IMG/VR virus record: IMGVR_UViG_3300030331_002565
Coordinates: 1-25,938 of that record
DNA: 25,938 nt
DNA from: a virus
Reading direction: 5' to 3' (one strand)
The notes under the pieces are model-generated. The model was not told where the DNA came from and did not search any database. It was given only the letters and a program-made list of their open reading frames with translations. The position numbers were made by a program, and so were the translations under genes. Below, one piece after another: positions 4,391 through 13,305 of the stretch. Position 1 is the first letter of the stretch; each line of letters starts with the position of its first letter.

Positions 4391-5646
4391 GGGGTCAAGG
4401 CACTTGGGGTGCTGTTGGTTGGGGAGGTATAGGTAATACCTCTTTTTCTGTAACTGGTGTTGCAGGAACATCTGCCGTTGGTGATGAAGGTGCAACTGGT
4501 ACTTCAACTGTAATAGAAACTGGTTTAGAGGCAACTAGTTCTTTAGGAACAGTAATAGCTAGTAGTATTCATATTATAACAGTTTCTGGTGTACAAAGCA
4601 CAGCTACTCTAAATAGTGCAACTGCTTCGATCCCTATATCTTTTGGTGTTACTGGTTTAGAAGCTACAACTGGATTTTTATCTGGTTGGGGTAGTTCTGC
4701 TTGGGGTGACCACATATGGGGTGGTGGTGTTTTTGCAGATGTAGGGCAAACAATCACACCAACTGGTTTTGAAGCACAAGCACAATTAACACTTCCCACA
4801 ATAACTGGAACTGGTATATTTAGCGTCACTGGCGTACAAGGTGTTACTAGTGTAGGTGATGAAGCAACTACGCCACAATCAAGAGTGAGTGTAACGCAAT
4901 CAGGTTTAACTGGATCAGTGGGTAATACCACAGAAACGGGAACAGCTTTATCTTCACCCACTGGTGTTTCTGCAACAACACTTATTGCTCAAAAATCTAC
5001 ATCTACAATTACTTTTACGGTAACTGTAGTAGGTGGTAATCCTTCTAATCATCCGTATCATGGTGTAGGTTCTGCAAATAAATTTGCAATTAATGGATCA
5101 ACTGCAACAGCAGACGTTACTTTAAATTTATATGAAACTAATACTTATAGATTTGATCAAAGCCATTCTAGTAATGATGGACACCCATTAAGACTTAGTA
5201 CCACAGAAAATGGAACGCATGGTGGTGGTTCAGAGTATACAACTGGTGTAACTACAAACGGAACACCTGGACAAGCTGGAGCATACACAGAAATTACTGT
5301 TGTTTCTGGAGCACCAGACTTACACTATTATTGCACTAATCATCCAAACATGGGTTATTTTGCTTACACCCCATTTATTGGTCCAGTATTAATTGGAACA
5401 ACTGGAGCACCAGTTACAAACGTGACTGCGTTAACTTCTGCTTTAGGTAATGAAACTGTAATTGGCTCTGCTGGAGTAGCCCTTACATTAGCAGGAATGT
5501 CAATTTCAATAAACGATGTTGCAATATCTGGTGGTTCTGTGTTATCGTTAACGGGAGTTGTTGGAACAACAGCTACTGGTGAAGAACAAGTGTATAGTTT
5601 AATAGAACCAGACCAACTGGCTAATTGGATTGAAAGGGTGGCATAA
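4378..5646 (+). CDS. Virion/fibre protein with Gly-Trp repeats and a cupredoxin-like copper domain, 422 aa
   Basis: Three parts are visible. Residues 1-200 are Thr/Ser/Gly-rich beta repeats of the type VTGVxGTSxVGDE, with GWG-xxx-WG motifs at 4-16 and 103-117. Residues about 210-335 form a cupredoxin-like domain with NHPYHGVGS, GHPL (His269) and YYCTNHPNM (Cys319, His322, Met325). The spacing C-x2-H-x2-M equals that of amicyanin's type 1 copper site, with His269 as the probable upstream ligand. Residues 336-422 are further beta repeats ending NWIERVA. The domain mix suggests a tail-fibre or virion-surface protein displaying a metal-binding beta sandwich. Copper binding is inferred from the ligand pattern. 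The start codon lies in a hairpin loop and has no ribosome-binding site; TAATG couples it to the next gene. Confidence 0.8.
   Translation: MANGWGQGTWGAVGWGGIGNTSFSVTGVAGTSAVGDEGATGTSTVIETGLEATSSLGTVIASSIHIITVSGVQSTATLNSATASIPISFGVTGLEATTGFLSGWGSSAWGDHIWGGGVFADVGQTITPTGFEAQAQLTLPTITGTGIFSVTGVQGVTSVGDEATTPQSRVSVTQSGLTGSVGNTTETGTALSSPTGVSATTLIAQKSTSTITFTVTVVGGNPSNHPYHGVGSANKFAINGSTATADVTLNLYETNTYRFDQSHSSNDGHPLRLSTTENGTHGGGSEYTTGVTTNGTPGQAGAYTEITVVSGAPDLHYYCTNHPNMGYFAYTPFIGPVLIGTTGAPVTNVTALTSALGNETVIGSAGVALTLAGMSISINDVAISGGSVLSLTGVVGTTATGEEQVYSLIEPDQLANWIERVA
4384..4411 (+). repeat. GWGxGxWG-coding repeat shared by two tail genes
   Basis: AACGGTTGGGGT followed by CTTGGGGTG recurs in diverged form at 4684-4708 in the same gene and at 12025-12053 in the nozzle gene. 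It encodes the Gly-Trp motifs GWGQGTWG, GWGSSAWG and GWGAGAWG. Confidence 0.55.
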
Positions 5647-6662
5647 TGGCAACATATGGTAATAATCTAAGGCTAAAAGAAATAGCCACTGGTGATGAAT
5701 CTGGAACATGGGGTACATCAACAAACACAAATTTAGAATTAATAGGTGAAGGTTTAGGTTTTGCAACAGTAACTTTTGGATCGGATGCTGATCTTACTGA
5801 AACGGTAGCCGATGGTTCATCTGACGGAGCTAGAGCTTTATTTATTAAAGTTGCTTCCTCAACTAATTTAACGGCAACAAGAACTTTGACAATAGCACCT
5901 AATGATATTAAAAGAGTGCATATAATTGAAAATGCAACTTCGGGGTCACAAAGTATAAATATATCACAAGGTCTTGGAGCTAATGTCACAATAGGCAATG
6001 GTGACACAAAGGTGGTATATTTAGATGGAGGGGGTGGTTCAGCGGCAGTTGTTGATGCTTTTGTAGATTTAGATTTATCAGGGGGATCGGTAAACGTAGG
6101 CACAGTTAAAACAAACTCTGGTGATATGACATTTGATTCTGCTGGAGATATTATACTTGATGCAGATGGTGCAGATATAATATTTAAAGATGCTGGAACA
6201 GCCATTGCACACTTAACTAACTCAAGCAGTGATTTTGTTATAGAAACAAAAGTGCAAGATAAAGATTTTATAATAAAGGGTGATGATGGTGGCTCCGGAA
6301 TAACAGCATTGACAATAGATATGTCAAGTGCAGGAGCGGCGACATTTAATAATGATGTGACTGCTTTTTCTGATAAAAGGTTGAAAACTGATATAGAGCC
6401 CATAGCAAATGCTTTAGAAAAAGTTAAACAGATGCAAGGTGTTTACTATAAAAGAAATGATGTAGATAATGCAAAACAACAAGTTGGTGTTTTAGCACAA
6501 GATATGGAAACGGTTTTACCAGAAGTTGTACTAACTGCAGATGATGCAATGGAAACAAAATCAGTTGATTATGGTAAACTAACAGCAGTATTAATTGAAG
6601 CAATAAAACAACTTAGTGATGAAGTAACCCATTTAAAACAACAGATTATAAATGGAGGGTAA
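5646..6662 (+). CDS. Tail fibre with C-terminal S74 self-cleaving chaperone, 338 aa
   Basis: The N-terminal 35 residues (RLKEIATGDESGTWGTSTNTNLELI) are a typical marine fibre attachment segment. A Gly/Asp-rich beta-helix-like shaft follows (SGDMTFDSAGDIILDADG). Residues 241-338 are a peptidase S74 intramolecular chaperone: FSDKRLKTDIEPI with the probable Ser242-Lys247 pair, GVLAQDMETVLPEVV at 281-295, KSVDYGKLTAVLIEAIKQL at 305-323 and a coiled-coil end. In this family the chaperone trimerises the fibre and then cuts itself off before the serine, here between Phe241 and Ser242. It lies between the copper-domain protein and the glycine-rich adhesin, so together they probably form the host-recognition apparatus. 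The start follows AAAGGG and a TAATG overlap. Confidence 0.9.
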   Translation: MATYGNNLRLKEIATGDESGTWGTSTNTNLELIGEGLGFATVTFGSDADLTETVADGSSDGARALFIKVASSTNLTATRTLTIAPNDIKRVHIIENATSGSQSINISQGLGANVTIGNGDTKVVYLDGGGGSAAVVDAFVDLDLSGGSVNVGTVKTNSGDMTFDSAGDIILDADGADIIFKDAGTAIAHLTNSSSDFVIETKVQDKDFIIKGDDGGSGITALTIDMSSAGAATFNNDVTAFSDKRLKTDIEPIANALEKVKQMQGVYYKRNDVDNAKQQVGVLAQDMETVLPEVVLTADDAMETKSVDYGKLTAVLIEAIKQLSDEVTHLKQQIINGG

Positions 6663-6665
6663 TCA

Positions 6666-7982
6666 GTGACTATACCTAGTTCTGGACAATCCTTATCTTT
6701 TTCTGCATTAAGAACTGAATTTGTAGGTGGTTCTAGTGCAATAAGTCTTGGTGATCTTTACAGAGGTGGCTCAAACATTAGAGCAAAGCACCCAACTAAT
6801 AATGCCACTAATGATGCGGCGAATGTGCCTGAAAGTGGTGCTTTAGATGTAAGTGATTTTTATGATCAAGGCAAAAGTTTTACCTTTACATATTCATCCT
6901 CTGGTACAGATCAAAACTTGTCTGATTTATTTGGATCTACTGATTATGGAGTGGACTATCCAAAGAACGTTGTAATCCCAGCTTCAATAACTCTGGGAAC
7001 AGCTAGTACTTCTGAATATGCTCTTGAAGCAGATAGTGGAGGTGCTGGAACAATTACTATTACAAACAATGGTAATATAATAGGTGCAGGAGGAGCAGGA
7101 GGCTCTGCTGGAAGTGCTAATGGTGGAACTGGAGGTAATGGTTCTGCTGGAGGAGATGCTTTCAAAGCATCAGTAGCCGTTACCTTAGTTAATAATGGAA
7201 GCATGTTAGCTGGAGGCGGAGGTGGCTCTGGTGGTGGTGGCGGAGGTCAAGGTGGTGCTCTTCAACAACAATCACAACAACAGACTACCGCTCAACAAGG
7301 TCCTAGTTACCAAGCACCAGCGTCTGGTAATAAATGGACAAGATACCAACTTGAACCCGGAGCACCAACCACACCAGCGGCTCGTATAGCTCATCAAGGT
7401 CCTAATCTAACGCCTGGACAGCAAGGATCTAGAGTGCAAATGCCATCGGTCGGTGCTCCTGGTCCAAGTTTTCCAAGTAGTCTGCCTTATAATCAAACTT
7501 CTGTTACTCAAGGGCAATATACATATTATAGAGGTCCACAAAACAGTCAGGGTTATATTTATTATACTGGTATGGAAAACCCACAAGAAGTTGGAATTCA
7601 AATAGCTTATTCAGTTTATAGAAGATATCCTCAACAATCACAGCAACAAAATCAAGTATCAGGACATAGTGGTGGTGCTGGAGGTGCTGGAGGATTAGGA
7701 AGAGGTTTTCAAAATCAACCTGGAGGAGATGCTGGAGCTAGTGGATCTGCGGGATCTACAGGTCAAGCTGGAAACGGTGGTGCTGGAGGTGATGGTGGCA
7801 CTGGTGGTGGTTATGGTCAAGCTGGAGGTGCAGGTCAAGATGGGGCTACTGGAACGTCCTCTACAACATCAGGCTCTGCTGGAGGTAATGATGGTTCAGT
7901 TGGAGCCGCAGGAAATTATATTGAAGGAATATCAAACGTAACTTTTACAAATAACGGTACAGTCGCAGGAGGTACAGAATAA
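6666..7982 (+). CDS. Glycine-rich tail fibre/adhesin, 438 aa
   Basis: The start is GTG 6666 behind GGAGGG. The N-terminus TIPSSGQSLSFSALRTEF with SLGDLYRGG is a fibre-tip-type lead, and residues 70-140 are beta-rich. Two glycine-rich blocks follow (about 140-197 and 333-416; for example GAGGAGGSAG and GGAGGDGGTGGG), each introduced by NNG-type strands (ITNNGNIIG, LVNNGSMLAGG, and TNNGTVAGG at the end). Between them lies a Gln/Pro/Tyr-rich segment (198-332) flanked by QQQSQQQ and QQSQQQNQ. Glycine-rich blocks of this sort form polyglycine II bundles in T-even gp38 adhesins, and the loops between them bind the receptor. I infer a receptor-binding tip, with the central segment the likely variable part. 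The bracketing Gln repeats suggest an insertion. Confidence 0.8.
   Translation: MTIPSSGQSLSFSALRTEFVGGSSAISLGDLYRGGSNIRAKHPTNNATNDAANVPESGALDVSDFYDQGKSFTFTYSSSGTDQNLSDLFGSTDYGVDYPKNVVIPASITLGTASTSEYALEADSGGAGTITITNNGNIIGAGGAGGSAGSANGGTGGNGSAGGDAFKASVAVTLVNNGSMLAGGGGGSGGGGGGQGGALQQQSQQQTTAQQGPSYQAPASGNKWTRYQLEPGAPTTPAARIAHQGPNLTPGQQGSRVQMPSVGAPGPSFPSSLPYNQTSVTQGQYTYYRGPQNSQGYIYYTGMENPQEVGIQIAYSVYRRYPQQSQQQNQVSGHSGGAGGAGGLGRGFQNQPGGDAGASGSAGSTGQAGNGGAGGDGGTGGGYGQAGGAGQDGATGTSSTTSGSAGGNDGSVGAAGNYIEGISNVTFTNNGTVAGGTE
7263..7282 (+). repeat. CAACAATCACA-type repeat, copy 1
   Basis: CAACAACAATCACAACAACA encodes a QQQSQQQ tract. A diverged copy is at 7631-7651. The pair brackets the Gln/Pro/Tyr-rich middle of the adhesin. 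Confidence 0.55.
7631..7651 (+). repeat. CAACAATCACA-type repeat, copy 2
   Basis: TCAACAATCACAGCAACAAA is a diverged direct copy of 7263-7282 and encodes QQSQQQN at the far side of the central insert. Confidence 0.55.
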
Positions 7983-8362
7983 TGGCAACATATGCTTGGA
8001 CTATAGATTGTTTACATACTAAAAATATAACAAAAAGTGGTAAGACTTATACAGACGTAATTATTGAAGTAGAAGCAACATTGACTGGAACTAGTGAAAC
8101 TGTGGGTAGTATTTCATCTGATGCTAGTTTTGATTTAGATATGAACATAGATAATGTTGACAGCAGTTTTACTGCATATGATTCTGTTACAGAAGATAAT
8201 GTAAAAACTTGGATTGAAAATAGATTAGGCTCAACAACCCTAGCAGAGATTAAAAAAGGGATTGAAGGTGATCTTGAGTTTAAAGAAAAAGTAAATGGTG
8301 GAACTAAAAAAGGCACGACCAACAGTGATGGTGTGTTTACTGCTTCTTTTCCTTGGTCATAG
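7982..8362 (+). CDS. Small tail-region protein of the ATYxWTI type, 126 aa
   Basis: The protein begins ATYAWTIDCLHTK, and the middle has EVEATLTGTSE, DMNIDNVDSSFTAYDSV, TEDNVKTWIENRLG and a C-terminal FPWS. This layout (ATYxWxI start, a beta-sandwich-like middle with FTxYxxVTExxVxxWI, and a PW end) matches a family I recall in many phages (DUF7936-like), located beside tail fibre genes and without an established function. It may be a fibre chaperone or a small baseplate protein. AGGAGG at 7968-7973 precedes the ATG, and TAATG links it to the adhesin. It ends the fibre block, just before a terminator-like hairpin. Confidence 0.75.
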   Translation: MATYAWTIDCLHTKNITKSGKTYTDVIIEVEATLTGTSETVGSISSDASFDLDMNIDNVDSSFTAYDSVTEDNVKTWIENRLGSTTLAEIKKGIEGDLEFKEKVNGGTKKGTTNSDGVFTASFPWS

Positions 8363-8398
8363 AATTCATTTAGATTAAATATGAATTTACATTTTTTT
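8363..8398 (+). terminator. Weak intrinsic terminator after the fibre operon
   Basis: AATTCAT (8363-8369) pairs with ATGAATT (8381-8387), with an inner TTA/TAA pair around GAT. A run of seven T follows at 8392-8398. The stem is AT-rich, so termination would be partial at best. It lies at the only gap of this size after the fibre genes. Confidence 0.4.
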
Positions 8399-8414
8399 GT
8401 TAAAGTCTTATATT
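8386..8414 (+). promoter_or_regulatory. Sigma70-like promoter for the oxygenase cassette
   Basis: The -35 box is TTTACA (8386-8391, 5 of 6 to TTGACA), the spacer is 17 bases, and the -10 box is TATATT (8409-8414, 5 of 6 to TATAAT). The expected start of transcription is at about 8420-8421, that is at the ATG itself, so the mRNA may be leaderless. It overlaps the terminator hairpin. Confidence 0.5.
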
Positions 8415-8420
8415 TAATTA

Positions 8421-8963
8421 ATGCCTATAAATACTGCAATTAAATTTTTAGAAAAAGAACATGCTAAATGTTTATCTTTACATATGGCACATGTAGAACC
8501 TAGCTTAAACCCTACTAAAGAAGAAATGTTTTCAGGAACAAAAAGTGTATATGCTGATCCAGTTTTTGAATGTTTGTTAAATTTTATCAAACCAGAAGTA
8601 GAAAAGGCTTGTAAAAAAGAATTAGTCCCGACTTATTCTTTTTGGAGAACTTATTTTAAGACACAAGATTGTCCTCCACATAAAGATAGACCTTCGTGTC
8701 AAATAAGTGTAACACTTTGTATTGATGCATCTGATAAAAAAGATATGTGGGATATTAATGTAGAAGATCAAGTTTTTAAATTGAATGTAGGTGAGGGTGT
8801 TATATATAGAGGTTGTGAACAAGAACATTGGAGACATGAACTTCAATATGATTGGCACAGACAAGTTTTCCTGCATTATATAGAAAAAGATGGTGAATTT
8901 TATCCACAATATAAATATGATGAAAGACCAGACTTATATTACAATACTGAAGTATCAATATGA
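8421..8963 (+). CDS. 2OG-Fe(II) oxygenase-like protein, 180 aa
   Basis: The double-stranded beta-helix signature is visible: CPPHKDRPSCQISVTLCID gives His87-x-Asp89, the later GVIYRGCEQEHWRHE gives distal His136, and Arg147 in WHRQVFLHYI is the likely 2-oxoglutarate partner. The order HxD ... H ... R with this spacing is that of Fe(II)/2OG dioxygenases; phage homologues often have the GCE-x-EHWR signature. The substrate is unknown. It is the first gene of a five-gene cassette that is more AT-rich than the surrounding structural genes, and it has no Shine-Dalgarno sequence but a good promoter just upstream. An ATGA overlap couples it to the next oxygenase. Confidence 0.8.
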   Translation: MPINTAIKFLEKEHAKCLSLHMAHVEPSLNPTKEEMFSGTKSVYADPVFECLLNFIKPEVEKACKKELVPTYSFWRTYFKTQDCPPHKDRPSCQISVTLCIDASDKKDMWDINVEDQVFKLNVGEGVIYRGCEQEHWRHELQYDWHRQVFLHYIEKDGEFYPQYKYDERPDLYYNTEVSI

Positions 8964-9523
8964 AAAGAAATATTATTGTAGCAAAAAAAGCATTTTCTCC
9001 AGAATTTTGTGAAGAAATAATAAAGCTTCAAAAAAATACAATGGTGAAAGGTGGTGTTGGTACTGGGGGTGATGTAAACAAAAAAGTAAGAAATAGTGAG
9101 ATTTGTTTTTTCAATGGAAGTGTAAAATATTTTCAACTATATAAACCAATACTTGAACTGGTCAGTAGAGTTAATAATCAGTTTTATGAATTTGATTTAT
9201 TCGAACCAGAAACATTTCAACTAACCAAATATGATGAAAAAAATAAAGGTTTTTATAAGCCTCACGAAGATGGTTTTTATGAGAACCCACCTAATCAACT
9301 AGTGAGAAAACTATCTATGTCAGCACAACTTACATCGCCCGAGTATTATGAAGGTGGTCAGTTAGAGTTTCCAGATGATAAACATAATTTTGTGGAGGAA
9401 GATGCAAGAGAGCAAGGCACAGTTGTGTTTTTTCCATCTTATTTAAAACACGGAGTACAACCAGTTACAAAAGGTATACGATACAGTTTAGTTAGTTGGT
9501 TTGTTGGTCCATCATTTAGGTAA
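8960..9523 (+). CDS. PKHD-type 2OG-Fe(II) hydroxylase, 187 aa
   Basis: This is a clear prolyl-hydroxylase-like dioxygenase. YKPHEDGFYEN gives His102 and Asp104, KLSMSAQLTSPEYYEGGQLEF is the conserved strand, and GTVVFFPSYLKHGVQPVTKG with IRYSLVSWF gives distal His164 and Arg174 for 2-oxoglutarate. The closest pattern I know is the PiuC/PKHD group common in bacteria and cyanophages. It would hydroxylate a protein or small molecule using Fe(II), O2 and 2OG. All triad residues are present, so it is likely active. It is coupled by ATGA to the 8421 gene and followed after 6 bases by a third oxygenase-like gene. Confidence 0.88.
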   Translation: MKRNIIVAKKAFSPEFCEEIIKLQKNTMVKGGVGTGGDVNKKVRNSEICFFNGSVKYFQLYKPILELVSRVNNQFYEFDLFEPETFQLTKYDEKNKGFYKPHEDGFYENPPNQLVRKLSMSAQLTSPEYYEGGQLEFPDDKHNFVEEDAREQGTVVFFPSYLKHGVQPVTKGIRYSLVSWFVGPSFR

Positions 9524-9529
9524 AAGAAT

Positions 9530-10162
9530 ATGAATAAAAAAGAATTTTTGGAAGCATGTAAAAAACAAAAATATTTTGGAGAGTGTTACTATGCTGTATA
9601 TGATAATTTCTTACCTTATCAAGAATTTGGAGCACTACAAGATTATGTGTTTGGTCCATTAGGTTGGCATGTCAGTAGCAAAATTAATGTTAATGATACC
9701 TCTAATAAAGACTTTTATTTTGCAACTACAATATTTCATAATCAAGAATATGCTAGGCGTCAATGGAATCCTAATGAGAATGTTGATCCGTTTTTAAAAA
9801 TAACTTCTAAATTATACATAGATGCATTAATGAGAATTAAAGCAAATTTATATATTGGTTCTACAGAAAATAAAATTCATGCACCTCATATAGATTACGA
9901 TTTGCATCATACAGGTGCTTTATTTTTTGTAACTGATTGCGATGCTCCTACTTATTTAGCAGATGGTACAGAAATAGAATCAAAAGCTAACAGAGTGCTC
10001 ATATTTAATCCTGCAATACCACATTCAAGTTCCGCACCAACAAACGTGCCATACAGAGTTACAATAAATATTAATTATTTTGGACTAGGTGTTAATAGAG
10101 ATTATATTGCAGATCACCACAATAGTATTCCGACGTTAAAGTCTGATAATTACCCTTTTTGA
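9530..10162 (+). CDS. 2OG-Fe(II) oxygenase-like protein, 210 aa
   Basis: The C-terminal half has IHAPHIDYDLHHTGALFFV (His120, Asp122), TYLADGTEIESKANRVLIF, NPAIPHSSSAP (His165) and NVPYRVTININY (Arg176), which is the HxD ... H ... R set of a double-stranded beta-helix dioxygenase. The N-terminal half (YAVYDNFLPYQEFGALQDY) resembles the lead of prolyl-4-hydroxylase-like proteins, in which a 'naive' short protein places the triad late. The substrate is unknown. It starts 6 bases after the preceding stop (AAAGAAT upstream, weak site) and overlaps the QueC-like gene. Confidence 0.82.
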   Translation: MNKKEFLEACKKQKYFGECYYAVYDNFLPYQEFGALQDYVFGPLGWHVSSKINVNDTSNKDFYFATTIFHNQEYARRQWNPNENVDPFLKITSKLYIDALMRIKANLYIGSTENKIHAPHIDYDLHHTGALFFVTDCDAPTYLADGTEIESKANRVLIFNPAIPHSSSAPTNVPYRVTININYFGLGVNRDYIADHHNSIPTLKSDNYPF

Positions 10163-10821
10163 TGAGTACGTCAGATTTAATTTTATTTTCAGGTGGTCCA
10201 GACAGTACGGTTTTGTTGAAACATTTTTTACAACAAAAAATAAAAGTAAGAGTTTTGTATATTCAAATGGGTTGGGCGATAAGAACACAACCTAGAATTA
10301 AATTACAAAACATGGCAGTAAATAACGTGATGCAATATTTAAGAGAAAAATACGGAGACTTTGAATATTCACAAGCATCTATTCTTACTACTTTGAATGA
10401 GCAAAATGAAGATAAATATTTTGCAACAGATCATCAATGGTGTGCTTTTTTTGGTTCAATGTTTTGCCACAATTACAATATAAAAAGAATGTGGGCTGGA
10501 AATTACACTTACACAGACGCTGTTGTACAAAAAAGAGATGGTAAATCAGAAAACTATTTGAATGATAATGACTTAAATATGTGGATAGAATCAGCTACTA
10601 AGTTTTTTGCCAGACCTAAATATTGTACTCCTAAATCTGAATACAAAGGTAAAGGTTTAGATAGTTTTAAAAGTAAAAAAGAGGCATGGGACTCACTGGA
10701 AATAGAATTAAAAAACATGGTAAGAAGTTGTGTTTCTCATAAATGGTTTTGTGGTGATTGTCCAAAATGTTGGACAGCAAAAGAATATAACTTAAGAGAT
10801 AATAAAGGTAATCCACTATGA
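10162..10821 (+). CDS. QueC-like PP-loop ATPase with zinc motif, 219 aa
   Basis: SGGPDS (residues 10-15) is the PP-loop that binds ATP in N-type ATP pyrophosphatases. The C-terminus has RSCVSHKWFCGDCPKCW, with Cys190, Cys197, Cys200 and Cys203, close to the C-x8-C-x2-C-x2-C zinc site of QueC (7-cyano-7-deazaguanine synthase), preceded by a YCTP segment like the CT-P-x of QueC. True QueC makes preQ0 from carboxydeazaguanine, ATP and ammonia. Some phages use preQ0 to modify their DNA. No QueD, QueE, FolE or DpdA is in the window, so the product is uncertain. ATG 10162 is preferred to the TTG at 10159; TGA of the previous gene overlaps it. Confidence 0.8.
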   Translation: MSTSDLILFSGGPDSTVLLKHFLQQKIKVRVLYIQMGWAIRTQPRIKLQNMAVNNVMQYLREKYGDFEYSQASILTTLNEQNEDKYFATDHQWCAFFGSMFCHNYNIKRMWAGNYTYTDAVVQKRDGKSENYLNDNDLNMWIESATKFFARPKYCTPKSEYKGKGLDSFKSKKEAWDSLEIELKNMVRSCVSHKWFCGDCPKCWTAKEYNLRDNKGNPL

Positions 10822-11393
10822 ATCCAGTTTATACTATAATGACACCTACTAAAATTCCTATTGGTAGAATTAACAAAAGTATTAATGAACAATTTATTAA
10901 AGAATGTAAGCAGTATCCTAATGAAAACACACTAAAAACAACTGCATCAGGTTTAATAAATCCAAAATTTATATCTACTTTGAATTTACATATGGTGAAA
11001 AGTATACAAGATAAATACATAAAACCTTACTTATGTGATCTATTAATAGATTTATTTGTAGATAGCACAAATTATGCTTTTTCAAAGAGAGACATTATTA
11101 AAAGTTATGATAAAAATATAAATATAAGAGAGTTGTGGTTAGTTGAGTATGATAATCAATCATATTTTAAATCACACACTCATGTTTCCTTACCTAATCA
11201 TTACAGTTTTAGTTGGTATTTAAAATGTGAAAGTGATAGAAAAGTAATATTTATATCAGATAAACAAGAGTACGAAATAATAGTTTCAGAAGGAGATATA
11301 TTAGTATTTCCAGGATGGTTGCCACATAGAGTAGAGAGCAGTAATAGTGTTTGTTGTTCTGGTAATTTTGATGTAAGCGTAAATATGGGTTAG
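10818..11393 (+). CDS. Divergent 2OG-Fe(II) oxygenase-type beta-helix protein, 191 aa
   Basis: The C-terminal half shows a cupin-like oxygenase pattern: ELWLVEYDNQSYFKSHTHVS with His120-x-His122, FSWYLKCESDRKVIFI, then VSEGDILVFPGWLPHRVES with distal His170, and a terminal FDVSV strand. The pattern is like the 2OG-FeII_Oxy_5 family (PF13759), where HxH or HxD and a PSWLxHxV motif occur. The usual late arginine is not evident, so activity is uncertain. The N-terminal half is helical. ATGA couples it to the QueC-like gene, and it closes the cassette. Confidence 0.65.
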   Translation: MNPVYTIMTPTKIPIGRINKSINEQFIKECKQYPNENTLKTTASGLINPKFISTLNLHMVKSIQDKYIKPYLCDLLIDLFVDSTNYAFSKRDIIKSYDKNINIRELWLVEYDNQSYFKSHTHVSLPNHYSFSWYLKCESDRKVIFISDKQEYEIIVSEGDILVFPGWLPHRVESSNSVCCSGNFDVSVNMG

Positions 11394-11404
11394 TTATCCA
11401 AATA

Positions 11405-11433
11405 TTGTAATTTATCAAAAATAGTAGTATGGT
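11405..11433 (+). promoter_or_regulatory. Weak promoter-like boxes before the nozzle gene
   Basis: TTGTAA (11405-11410) and TATGGT (11428-11433) each match consensus at 4 of 6 positions, with a 17-base spacer. Transcription would begin at about 11440, the ATG, which lacks a Shine-Dalgarno sequence. The support is modest. Confidence 0.25.
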
Positions 11434-11439
11434 TTTATT

Positions 11440-13305
11440 ATGCCATTACAGTCTTTAAAATTTAAGCCTGGAATTAATAGAGAGATTACATCTTACTCTA
11501 ATGAAGGTGGCTTTTTTGATTGTGAAAAAATTAGGTTTTATACAGCGTTTCCAGAAAAAATAGGTGGTTGGGTCAAACAGTCAGACAATACTTATCTAGG
11601 TACAGCTAGAGCATTGCATAATTATATTGCTTTAGATGGTTCTGATTTCATGGGAGTTGGAACACATTTAAAGTATTATATAGAAGAAGGTGGTGCATTT
11701 AATGATATAACACCAATCCGTAAAACTTCAACAAATAGCATAACTTTTTCTGCTACAAATGGTTCTAGTACGATTACTGTAACAGATGCATCACATGGTG
11801 CAGTGGTAAATGATTTTGTAACAATATCTGGTGCTGTTAGTTTAGGTGGTCTTGTTACAGCAAGTGTGCTCAATGCAGAGCATCAAATAACAAAAATAGT
11901 AAATGGTAACTCCTATGAGATTGTCGTTAGTGTTACTGCAAACGCCTCTGATAGTGGTAATGGTGGTTCTGGTGTTGATGGTTTATATCAAATTAATGTA
12001 GGTCTTGATACCTCTGTTGGTGGTAATGGTTGGGGTGCTGGAGCTTGGGGTGGTATAAATGCTGATTTATCAGAGTTTGGTTGGGGTGAAGCCGCGTCAT
12101 CAGGGACTACGGCTACTGTAAGATTATGGACACATGATAATTTTGGTGAAGATTTACTTCTAAATCCAAGAGATAGTGGTATTTTTTATTGGGATAGGAG
12201 TAATGGTTTAAGCACTAGAGCTGTTAATTTAACAAGTTTATCTGGTGCAAGTGATGTTCCTACAATAGCAAAACAAGTTTTAGTATCTGATATAGATAGA
12301 CATATAGTTGTGTTTGGAGCTAATACTATTGGAACTTCTACACAAGACCCACTGTTAATAAGGTTTGGGTCGCAGGAGTCATTAACTAATTTTACACCAG
12401 ATACTACTAATACTGCAGGAGATTTAAGGTTAAGTAGTGGTTCTACTTTTGTACAAGCTGTAGAAACTAAGCAACAAATATTAGTGTTTACTGATAAAAG
12501 TTTATTTTCAATGCGATTTATTGGTCCACCTTTTACTTTTGGTTTACAAGAACTTTCTAAAAACATAACCATAATCAGCCCTAACTCAGCCGTAGCTGTT
12601 GATGATATTGTGTTTTGGATGGGTAAAGAAAACTTTTATGTATATACTGGTCGTACTCAACAAATAGCTTGCACTGTAAGAGATAAAGTATTTTTAGATT
12701 TTAACTTTTCACAAGCTGATAAAGTTGTTTCTGGAGTAAATTCACAATGGTCAGAAATATGGTGGTTTTATCCTTCAGCAAGTAGTGAAGAAAATAATAA
12801 ATATGTTATATATAATTATGCAAATCAAACATGGTACTATGGCACACTTGCTAGAACAGCTTGGCATGATAGAGGTATAAGAAGGTTTCCAATAGGTGCT
12901 GGATCACCTCATTTATTTGAGCATGAAAATGGCAATGATGATGATGGCAGTGCTATGACGGCATCAATAGAATCAAGTCAAATAGATATAGGTGATGGCT
13001 ATCAATTTAGTTTTATAAAACAGCTTATACCAGATATCACATTTGAAGGTTCTACCTCAACAACTGGTAATCCTTCAGCTGACTTTACATTACAAGCTCG
13101 CACTGGTCCTGGAAGTACCTATGCAAACACTTCTGGTGGCTCTAGTACAAGAACTGCAACAGCTCCAGTAGAACAGTTTACTGATTTGATTAATGTTAGA
13201 CTTAGAGGAAGATCATTTAACATGAAACTTGAATCAACGGAACAAGGTGTGGCATGGAAACTTGGTACACCAAGAGTAGATATAAGACCTGATGGTAGGC
13301 GATAA
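11440..13305 (+). CDS. Tail nozzle/hub (stabilization-type) protein, 621 aa
   Basis: The N-terminus PLQSLKFKPGINREITSYS, then NEGGFFDCEKIRFYTAFPEK and IGGW, is a well-known signature of podovirus tail hub or 'stabilization'/nozzle proteins in marine phages (equivalent in place to T7 gp12 and P22 gp10). Residues 195-205 carry a Gly-Trp motif (GNGWGAGAWGG) shared with the 4378 fibre protein. The middle has beta-propeller-like strands (IVVFGANTIGT, ILVFTDKSLFSMRFIGPP, EIWWFYPSAS). It probably forms the tube at the tail end and contacts the fibres. There is no Shine-Dalgarno sequence before ATG 11440; it is separated from the cassette by 46 bases and followed by a TAATG overlap. Confidence 0.85.
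   Translation: MPLQSLKFKPGINREITSYSNEGGFFDCEKIRFYTAFPEKIGGWVKQSDNTYLGTARALHNYIALDGSDFMGVGTHLKYYIEEGGAFNDITPIRKTSTNSITFSATNGSSTITVTDASHGAVVNDFVTISGAVSLGGLVTASVLNAEHQITKIVNGNSYEIVVSVTANASDSGNGGSGVDGLYQINVGLDTSVGGNGWGAGAWGGINADLSEFGWGEAASSGTTATVRLWTHDNFGEDLLLNPRDSGIFYWDRSNGLSTRAVNLTSLSGASDVPTIAKQVLVSDIDRHIVVFGANTIGTSTQDPLLIRFGSQESLTNFTPDTTNTAGDLRLSSGSTFVQAVETKQQILVFTDKSLFSMRFIGPPFTFGLQELSKNITIISPNSAVAVDDIVFWMGKENFYVYTGRTQQIACTVRDKVFLDFNFSQADKVVSGVNSQWSEIWWFYPSASSEENNKYVIYNYANQTWYYGTLARTAWHDRGIRRFPIGAGSPHLFEHENGNDDDGSAMTASIESSQIDIGDGYQFSFIKQLIPDITFEGSTSTTGNPSADFTLQARTGPGSTYANTSGGSSTRTATAPVEQFTDLINVRLRGRSFNMKLESTEQGVAWKLGTPRVDIRPDGRR

Follow-up and report, generated by a model that had tools for sequence, protein, structure and literature searches.

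A viral cassette of oxygenase-like genes and a QueC-like gene is exchanged together with a predicted gp38-like adhesin and may serve in its tailoring

The virus record IMGVR_UViG_3300030331_002565 was analysed over positions 1 to 25,938. This whole stretch of 25,938 bases, probably a fragment, is referred to as the window. It carries five coupled genes, P0001 to P0005, between tail genes and a gene for a virion structural protein (Table 1). The initial annotation had described them as a cassette of 2-oxoglutarate (2OG)-Fe(II) oxygenases with a QueC-like enzyme. All five were indeed present as plus-strand open reading frames (ORFs) at 8421-11393, spaced by -4, +6, -1 and -4 bases. The cassette was found to be exchanged as one unit with the two genes directly upstream, which encode an adhesin (P0006) and a DUF7936 protein (P0007). 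An enzyme set travelling with a variable receptor-binding protein suggests the finishing of a virion part that contacts the host. We therefore tentatively favour the reading that an exchangeable receptor-binding module is present here, the cassette supplying its enzymes, which would tailor the adhesin.

Scans with P0004 and with P0011, the gene to the right of the cassette, resulted in about 120 contig stretches, some of them overlapping. At least 40 loci, on backbones that clearly differ, showed the order adhesin-DUF7936-P0001-P0002-P0003-P0004, and 21 of these loci are non-redundant. A shared gene order in other marine phages, which the initial annotation had proposed as a check, was thus found. 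The fuller order was P0006-P0007-P0001-(x)-P0002-P0003-(x)-P0004-(P0005 or P0002'), again with different downstream backbones. Some loci contained inserted genes for extra oxygenases, a DUF6445 protein, an Asp/Arg-hydroxylase-like protein or a pyridoxal phosphate (PLP) enzyme of Cys/Met metabolism, the latter at L009:5590-6738 (PF01053, 6e-97), L101:11262-12398 and in relatives. Compared with the window, P0011 of locus L009 was 92% identical but its P0004 only 55%, and in locus L089 P0011 was 63% but P0004 82% identical. The pairwise identities of P0007, P0001, P0002, P0003 and P0004 were intercorrelated (rho 0.56-0.80; 0.61-0.75 for P0007 with P0001-P0004), whereas the flanking genes P0008 (left) and P0011 (right) showed no covariation with the module (rho -0.13 to 0.07; for the enzymes, about 0 with P0008 and -0.13 to 0.05 with P0011). 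The exchanged unit is the adhesin, the DUF7936 protein and the enzymes. Some oxygenase set occupies the same slot in most close relatives. Strong oxygenase turnover and paralogy between loci, together with Gly-rich repeats that favour recombination, would also be expected if oxygenase genes were simply variable filler, collecting where tail-fibre genes recombine readily and selected weakly or for unrelated reasons. This is distinctly unlikely in our view, as P0007-P0001-P0002-P0003-P0004 is a fixed series across the 21 non-redundant loci and the metal ligands and PP-loop/zinc residues of the enzymes are invariant.

P0006 consists of two conserved glycine-rich halves flanking a hypervariable insert that is about 108 residues long and covers roughly residues 213-330 (window about 7302-7655). 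Mean pairwise identity was 77% in the N half, 37% in the insert and 76% in the C half. An AlphaFold2 (AF2) model was confident in the glycine-rich parts, and only two solved structures matched it well, gp38 of phage S16 (6f45, Z 18.2 over 213 residues) and gp38 of phage PP01 (9v85, Z 17.8 over 192 residues). The next, unrelated row had a Z of 6.6. T-even gp38 is a receptor-binding tip in which a polyglycine-II sandwich carries hypervariable loops (PMC12892980). Judged from the model, P0006 is predicted to have a gp38-type fold, a polyglycine sandwich scaffold with a hypervariable part, and in view of the role of gp38 it is most likely a receptor-binding protein. It differs from gp38 in having one large hypervariable insert between the glycine-rich halves, and in being followed by DUF7936 and enzyme genes in a podovirus-like gene context. 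The tip is rich in Pro (9.3% vs 2.5%) and also in Tyr and Gln. The start of P0007 overlaps the stop of P0006 by 1 base in most relatives. At L030:6288-7803 and L008:3230-7302, other glycine-rich fibre proteins were paired with a small phrog_7759 protein, in the manner of P0006 and DUF7936; the phrog_7759 protein could be an alternative chaperone or adaptor.

The hypervariable tip of P0006 covaried with the enzymes P0001 (0.66), P0002 (0.59), P0003 (0.74) and P0004 (0.48), with a Mantel p of 0.001. After control for the adhesin N half or for P0007, partial correlations of 0.32-0.63 (p <= 0.005) were retained for P0001-P0003. The C half of P0006, located between the tip and the enzymes, correlated with P0001 (0.39) and P0003 (0.42) and was nearly uncorrelated with P0007 (0.03) and P0004 (0.06), so that linkage by itself does not explain the whole pattern. 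The same tip-enzyme covariation is predicted if the enzymes modify a host receptor or envelope matching the adhesin type, as a means of host-surface or superinfection control. A possible promoter of their own, by which expression could precede that of the tail genes, and the location of the oxygenases of phage HTVC027P on the opposite strand would fit this too. We consider it unlikely, since 2OG oxygenases in general need cytosolic 2OG and Fe(II), and inspection of the sequences revealed no obvious secretion signal or membrane anchor.

Oxygenase arrays beside glycine-rich fibre proteins were also seen in other phages. Among 14 other records with a P0001 homologue, picked from the best matches and not at random, the array adjoined a glycine-rich fibre protein, mostly of PF21722, in 11 (HTVC023P, HTVC033P, Mosig, S-CAM8, ACG-2014g, S-MS29, S-SSM5, S-RIM50, Sf-FR1, syn9 and S-CREM1). 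For the Pelagibacter phage HTVC033P, 4-53 kb of the genome were examined, and the two glycine-rich ORFs present there, the only ones, stand directly before the oxygenase cluster. The T4-like Pelagibacter phage Mosig has one glycine-rich ORF among 156, located one gene away from a six-gene cluster. S-PM2 was a partial case, with a 582-aa structural protein containing a glycine-rich stretch. The arrays of T4-like cyanophages and pelagiphages (syn9, S-CREM1, S-SSM5, Mosig EXVC030M) resemble the cassette in their tandem P0001- and P0003-type genes and glycine-rich fibre neighbours, but belong to another virion type, lack P0004 and in some cases include tryptophan halogenases or heme oxygenase-type genes. 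Across all backbones, 23 loci with and 10 without a glycine-rich adhesin had oxygenases, against 4 and 27 in which oxygenases were absent, a difference (p = 4e-6) that is confounded by phylogeny; the four glycine-rich cases lacking oxygenases were taken from an ORF list made without gene calling. For distant backbones alone the association had a p of 6e-5. Mosig EXVC030M (locus L150, 54.7-71.3 kb) also has a very large cluster of modification enzymes adjoining tail-fibre genes, with Asp_Arg_Hydrox, MoaA-like, carbamoyltransferase, methyltransferase and nitroreductase members.

Several findings weigh against adhesin tailoring. Covariation of P0004 with the tip was lost once the scaffold or P0007 was controlled for (p about 0.08). 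Mantel and partial Mantel tests are liberal on 17-21 related taxa, and linkage can yield covariation. The association of adhesin and oxygenases was not significant in the close backbones alone (p = 0.40), where about nine contigs have oxygenases in the slot and no glycine-rich protein. HTVC027P likewise has oxygenases without a glycine-rich protein, and in S-SKS1 and the fragment AG-345-E08, both with oxygenases in the slot, none was seen. Finally, some cassettes include the Cys/Met PLP enzyme, which is easier to reconcile with a metabolic role than with the modification of proteins.

The four oxygenase genes differed in how closely they follow the motif of their superfamily. In P0001, H87xD89...H136 was invariant among 25 aligned homologues; R147, at the usual position of the distal arginine, varied, and R138 and R76 were invariant. 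No Pfam family matched P0001 at E<=1, hence there was no ferrochelatase domain match. Profile searches against PDB sequences found no match for the P0001 and P0003 families, and a profile comparison did not join the P0001 and P0002 families. With these profile searches empty, the putative oxygenase fold of P0001 is read from motif conservation only. P0002 scored above the cut-off of Pfam PF13640 (58 bits) and matched the bacterial prolyl 4-hydroxylases 3itq and 5hv0 over its whole length, with the HxD...H...R motif, but at an E of only 7e-5. H120xD122...H165...R176 was invariant among 18 homologues of P0003, and the P0003 and P0005 families were joined by a profile match with a probability of 93%. 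The initial annotation had listed three clear HxD...H...R oxygenases; this held for P0002 and P0003, and P0001 retained HxD...H without a conserved distal arginine. Its divergent HxH oxygenase-like protein was recovered in P0005, where H120xH122...H170 was invariant among 18 homologues, which marks it as a family trait and not decay. On these motif and domain matches, P0002 and P0003 are assigned to the 2OG-Fe(II) oxygenase superfamily, and P0001 and P0005 agree with it only in part.

Two database labels, 'ferrochelatase' for phrog_2954 (P0001) and 'DNA endonuclease V' for phrog_274 (P0003), look wrong. The families were matched by 156 and 220 phage records, respectively, in tblastn searches. 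The conserved HxD...H, the short length and the lack of a ferrochelatase domain match indicate that phrog_2954 is probably an oxygenase-like family. The endonuclease V label is doubted because of the invariant HxD...H...R and because a Pfam search of P0003 gave no pyrimidine-dimer glycosylase domain match; phrog_274, too, is probably oxygenase-like. The ferrochelatase label bears on the possibility that the genes form an auxiliary metabolic cassette, by which a small molecule would be made or degraded (an amino-acid derivative, or a compound of iron or sulfur metabolism), its link to the adhesin reflecting no more than a shared variable tail region. Consistent with this, the cassette varies in gene content, locus L009 and the L101 group carry the PLP enzyme, and two articles present such genes as partner auxiliary metabolic genes (AMGs) linked to iron metabolism (PMC9599517, PMC12753301). 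We find it rather unlikely nonetheless. Covariation with the cassette is missing in the P0008 and P0011 flanks although these lie just as close, the adhesin tip is tracked by P0001-P0003, no pathway is recognisable, and the proposed role in iron metabolism depends on a 'ferrochelatase' label that looks wrong.

An AF2 model of P0004 had a mean predicted local distance difference test score (pLDDT) of 92. The closest solved folds were Cap9 (Z 16.0), QueC (14.8 and 14.4) and QatC (13.6), and other PP-loop families scored 13.0 and below; by this model P0004 is assigned a QueC-superfamily fold. The SGGxDS phosphate loop was present in 18/18 homologues, as were the zinc cysteines C-x6-C-x2-C-x2-C, with a spacing of x6 where canonical QueC has x8. 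In an alignment with two QueC and two Cap9-like proteins, the substrate motifs YPDC, VPxRN and YxQxHxxE were absent from P0004, and so were the Cap9-type RN and YxDC motifs. The signature motifs of QueC have been published, and the substrate motifs are likewise lost in QatC (PMC13329287). With a fold, an ATP loop and a zinc site of the QueC type but none of the three substrate motifs, P0004 is predicted to be a divergent QueC-superfamily enzyme and not QueC. It shares about 18% identity with QueC, Cap9 and QatC (PF06508 superfamily) and differs from them in lacking the motifs for recognition of 7-carboxy-7-deazaguanine (CDG) and in its setting, which is not a preQ0 operon, a cyclic-oligonucleotide-based anti-phage signalling system (CBASS) or a Qat locus. 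Relatives were found only in viral contigs. Tblastn gave no match in 50,697 phage records, a search of 84,980 prokaryote genomes gave PP-loop fragments only, so that a host origin is not traceable, and PDB sequences gave chance BtuF matches only.

The PP-loop/zinc enzyme of the initial annotation was borne out in its fold, SGGxDS loop and four cysteines. A DNA base modification of the 7-deazaguanine type, with a QueC-like enzyme followed by 2OG-dependent oxidation, would agree with the QueC fold of P0004 and with the existence of phages that make 7-deazaguanine DNA (PMC6884629). It is highly improbable here, since the substrate motifs are missing and no homologue of 6-pyruvoyltetrahydropterin synthase (PTPS, QueD), a radical S-adenosylmethionine (SAM) enzyme (QueE), GTP cyclohydrolase I (FolE) or tRNA-guanine transglycosylase (TGT) was found in 11 P0004-carrying records, probably fragments. 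The TGT-family search likewise gave no match for a TGT-like Cap10 partner in these records. Among the three substrate ideas raised initially, a modified base is thus disfavoured, a modified virion protein fits best and a small molecule is possible. Within the QueC superfamily, Cap9 is protein-modifying by experiment and QatC has been proposed to be so, rather than acting on free nucleobases (PMC13279940). P0004 could conceivably be a phage counterpart of Cap9 or QatC by which a virion protein, either the adhesin or the DUF7936 protein, would receive a small carboxylate, and the oxygenases would then do the tailoring. We regard this more specific proposal as improbable; if true, the receptor-binding tip would be chemically diversified beyond the 20 amino acids. 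A distant P0004 homologue (41%) was located in locus L107 in a different context, with oxygenases and tail-collar proteins, and further neighbours were an amino-acid-binding periplasmic protein, a ParB-like protein and a methyltransferase. Cap9-like proteins were seen in Cytobacillus and in a Euryarchaeota metagenome-assembled genome (L137:1255-1827 and L138:1273-1824), each followed by a protein of about 325 aa, the size expected for a TGT-like Cap10.

Under the favoured adhesin-tailoring reading, the module would comprise the gp38-like adhesin with its hypervariable tip, DUF7936 and four to eight tailoring enzymes, the latter probably read from their own promoter plus read-through. When new adhesin is made late in infection, its side chains would be hydroxylated, or oxidised in another way, by the 2OG-Fe(II) oxygenases; the Pro/Tyr/Gln-rich variable tip or the polyglycine-II scaffold would be the most likely site. 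Prolyl-hydroxylase-like enzymes act on polyproline-II-type chains, the geometry of which is close to that of polyglycine II. P0004, using ATP, may activate a carboxylate to give an amide- or nitrile-type group on the same protein or on an attached small group. The outcome could be a binding surface that is tuned or protected. What was observed is the gene order, the predicted folds and motifs, the exchange as a unit, the covariation and the conserved promoter-like site; enzyme activity, the adhesin as substrate and the kind of modification are inferred.

A terminator-like hairpin and a promoter had been placed at the start of the block. A hairpin before P0001 was rejected as a terminator, as it was not above chance (z -1.1 vs shuffles) and had no match in a terminator scan of the window, which listed none at the cassette end either. 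The promoter-like site TTTACA-17-TATATT at 8386-8414 lies in the gap before P0001. On its own it is unremarkable, the window having 39 such sites vs 56 expected in shuffles, but its position is conserved. In the P0007-P0001 gap of 18 loci, which are related to one another and hence not independent observations, the summed best promoter score was 173 vs 143.8 +/- 3.8 in shuffled gaps. The gap of locus L120 contains a perfect TTGACA-17-TATAAT (12/12). Most other junctions in relatives overlap or nearly abut. The gap before P0011 was likewise above its shuffles (63 vs 54.3 +/- 2.2, in seven loci). A separate transcription start at P0001 is likely from these scores, and read-through from the tail genes may also occur. 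The low G+C content of the cassette was confirmed for total G+C (26.4-31.9% in the five genes vs 32.9-44.0% in the other genes measured, or 33.3-44.0% apart from a P0002-like overlap at the edge). However, G+C at fourfold-degenerate third positions was 4-16% in the cassette and 9-24% in its neighbours, and because these ranges overlap, much of the difference is due to amino-acid content. The proposed moron-type module thus stands as a coherent, exchangeable cassette with a promoter-like site, but without a terminator or a clearly foreign composition. It is not a classical stand-alone moron, since the exchanged unit includes the upstream adhesin and DUF7936 genes and the slot is oxygenase-filled in most close relatives.

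Wittmers et al. (PMC9599517) described clusters in HTVC023P-type pelagiphages in which 2OG oxygenases stand together with 'ferrochelatases', and both are enriched in seasonal viruses according to PMC11561400. These AMG clusters resemble the cassette in their phrog_61, phrog_81 and phrog_2954 families, adjacent genes and similar podoviruses. They differ in that, as far as the accessible text goes, they were published without an adhesin link or a QueC-like member and with the ferrochelatase taken at face value. Pelagiphage oxygenase clusters are thus already published. What appears to be new is the link to an adhesin, with the covariation, and the presence of a QueC-like enzyme, none of which was found in the accessible text or in targeted searches of open-access papers. 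In these searches, no earlier account turned up of phage tail hydroxylation or of an association between oxygenase arrays and glycine-rich fibre proteins. Among the genes that are common in abundant marine phages but still unexplained are oxygenase arrays, and the usual practice is to class these as metabolic or iron-related. The adhesin link offers the testable idea of post-translational tailoring of the receptor-binding tip, on cultured phages (HTVC023P, HTVC033P, S-SSM5). Furthermore, two labels used in ecological interpretations (ferrochelatase and endonuclease V) are put in question, and a divergent branch, so far found only in viruses, is added to the QueC superfamily.

Table 1. Coordinates of the cassette, its exchanged partners and the flanking genes in the window
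Feature	Position	Strand	Support or remark
P0008: S74 (intramolecular chaperone) tail fibre, left flank	5646..6662	+	PF13884 7.6e-18
P0006: predicted gp38-like polyglycine-sandwich adhesin	6666..7982	+	AF2 model vs solved gp38 folds
P0007: DUF7936 (PF25590), small tail-associated protein, non-enzyme partner in exchanged unit	7982..8362	+	Pfam 1.6e-11
Gap with sigma70-like promoter site (TTTACA at 8386, TATATT ending 8414)	8363..8420	+	
P0001: 2OG-oxygenase-like, 180 aa, phrog_2954 (labelled ferrochelatase)	8421..8963	+	phrog_2954 E 1e-40
P0002: 2OG-Fe(II) oxygenase, prolyl-4-hydroxylase-like	8960..9523	+	PF13640 1.6e-15
P0003: 2OG-Fe(II) oxygenase, phrog_274 (labelled DNA endonuclease V)	9530..10162	+	phrog_274 1e-36
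P0004: predicted divergent QueC-superfamily PP-loop/zinc enzyme	10162..10821	+	ATG 10162; TTG start possible at 10159
P0005: 2OG-Fe(II) oxygenase-like (2OG-FeII_Oxy_5 type) with HxH...H	10818..11393	+	phrog_81 6.5e-19
P0011: phage stabilisation/virion structural protein, right flank	11440..13305	+	phrog_3287 1e-61

The right-flanking P0011 was 39% identical to its counterpart in phage DSL-LC04 and 30-34% identical to those in Pelagibacter (HTVC027P, HTVC023P), Roseobacter and Planktothrix phages. Two further genes of the window were observed outside the module. P0010 (4378-5646) is tail-fibre-like and gave no match in Pfam; part of it (HPLRLS ... YYCTNHPNMG) resembles a cupredoxin, which hints at a copper site. 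P0009 (2892-3614), among the structural genes, is a Rossmann-like protein with a weak DUF685 match and no clear family, and was kept in 22 loci.

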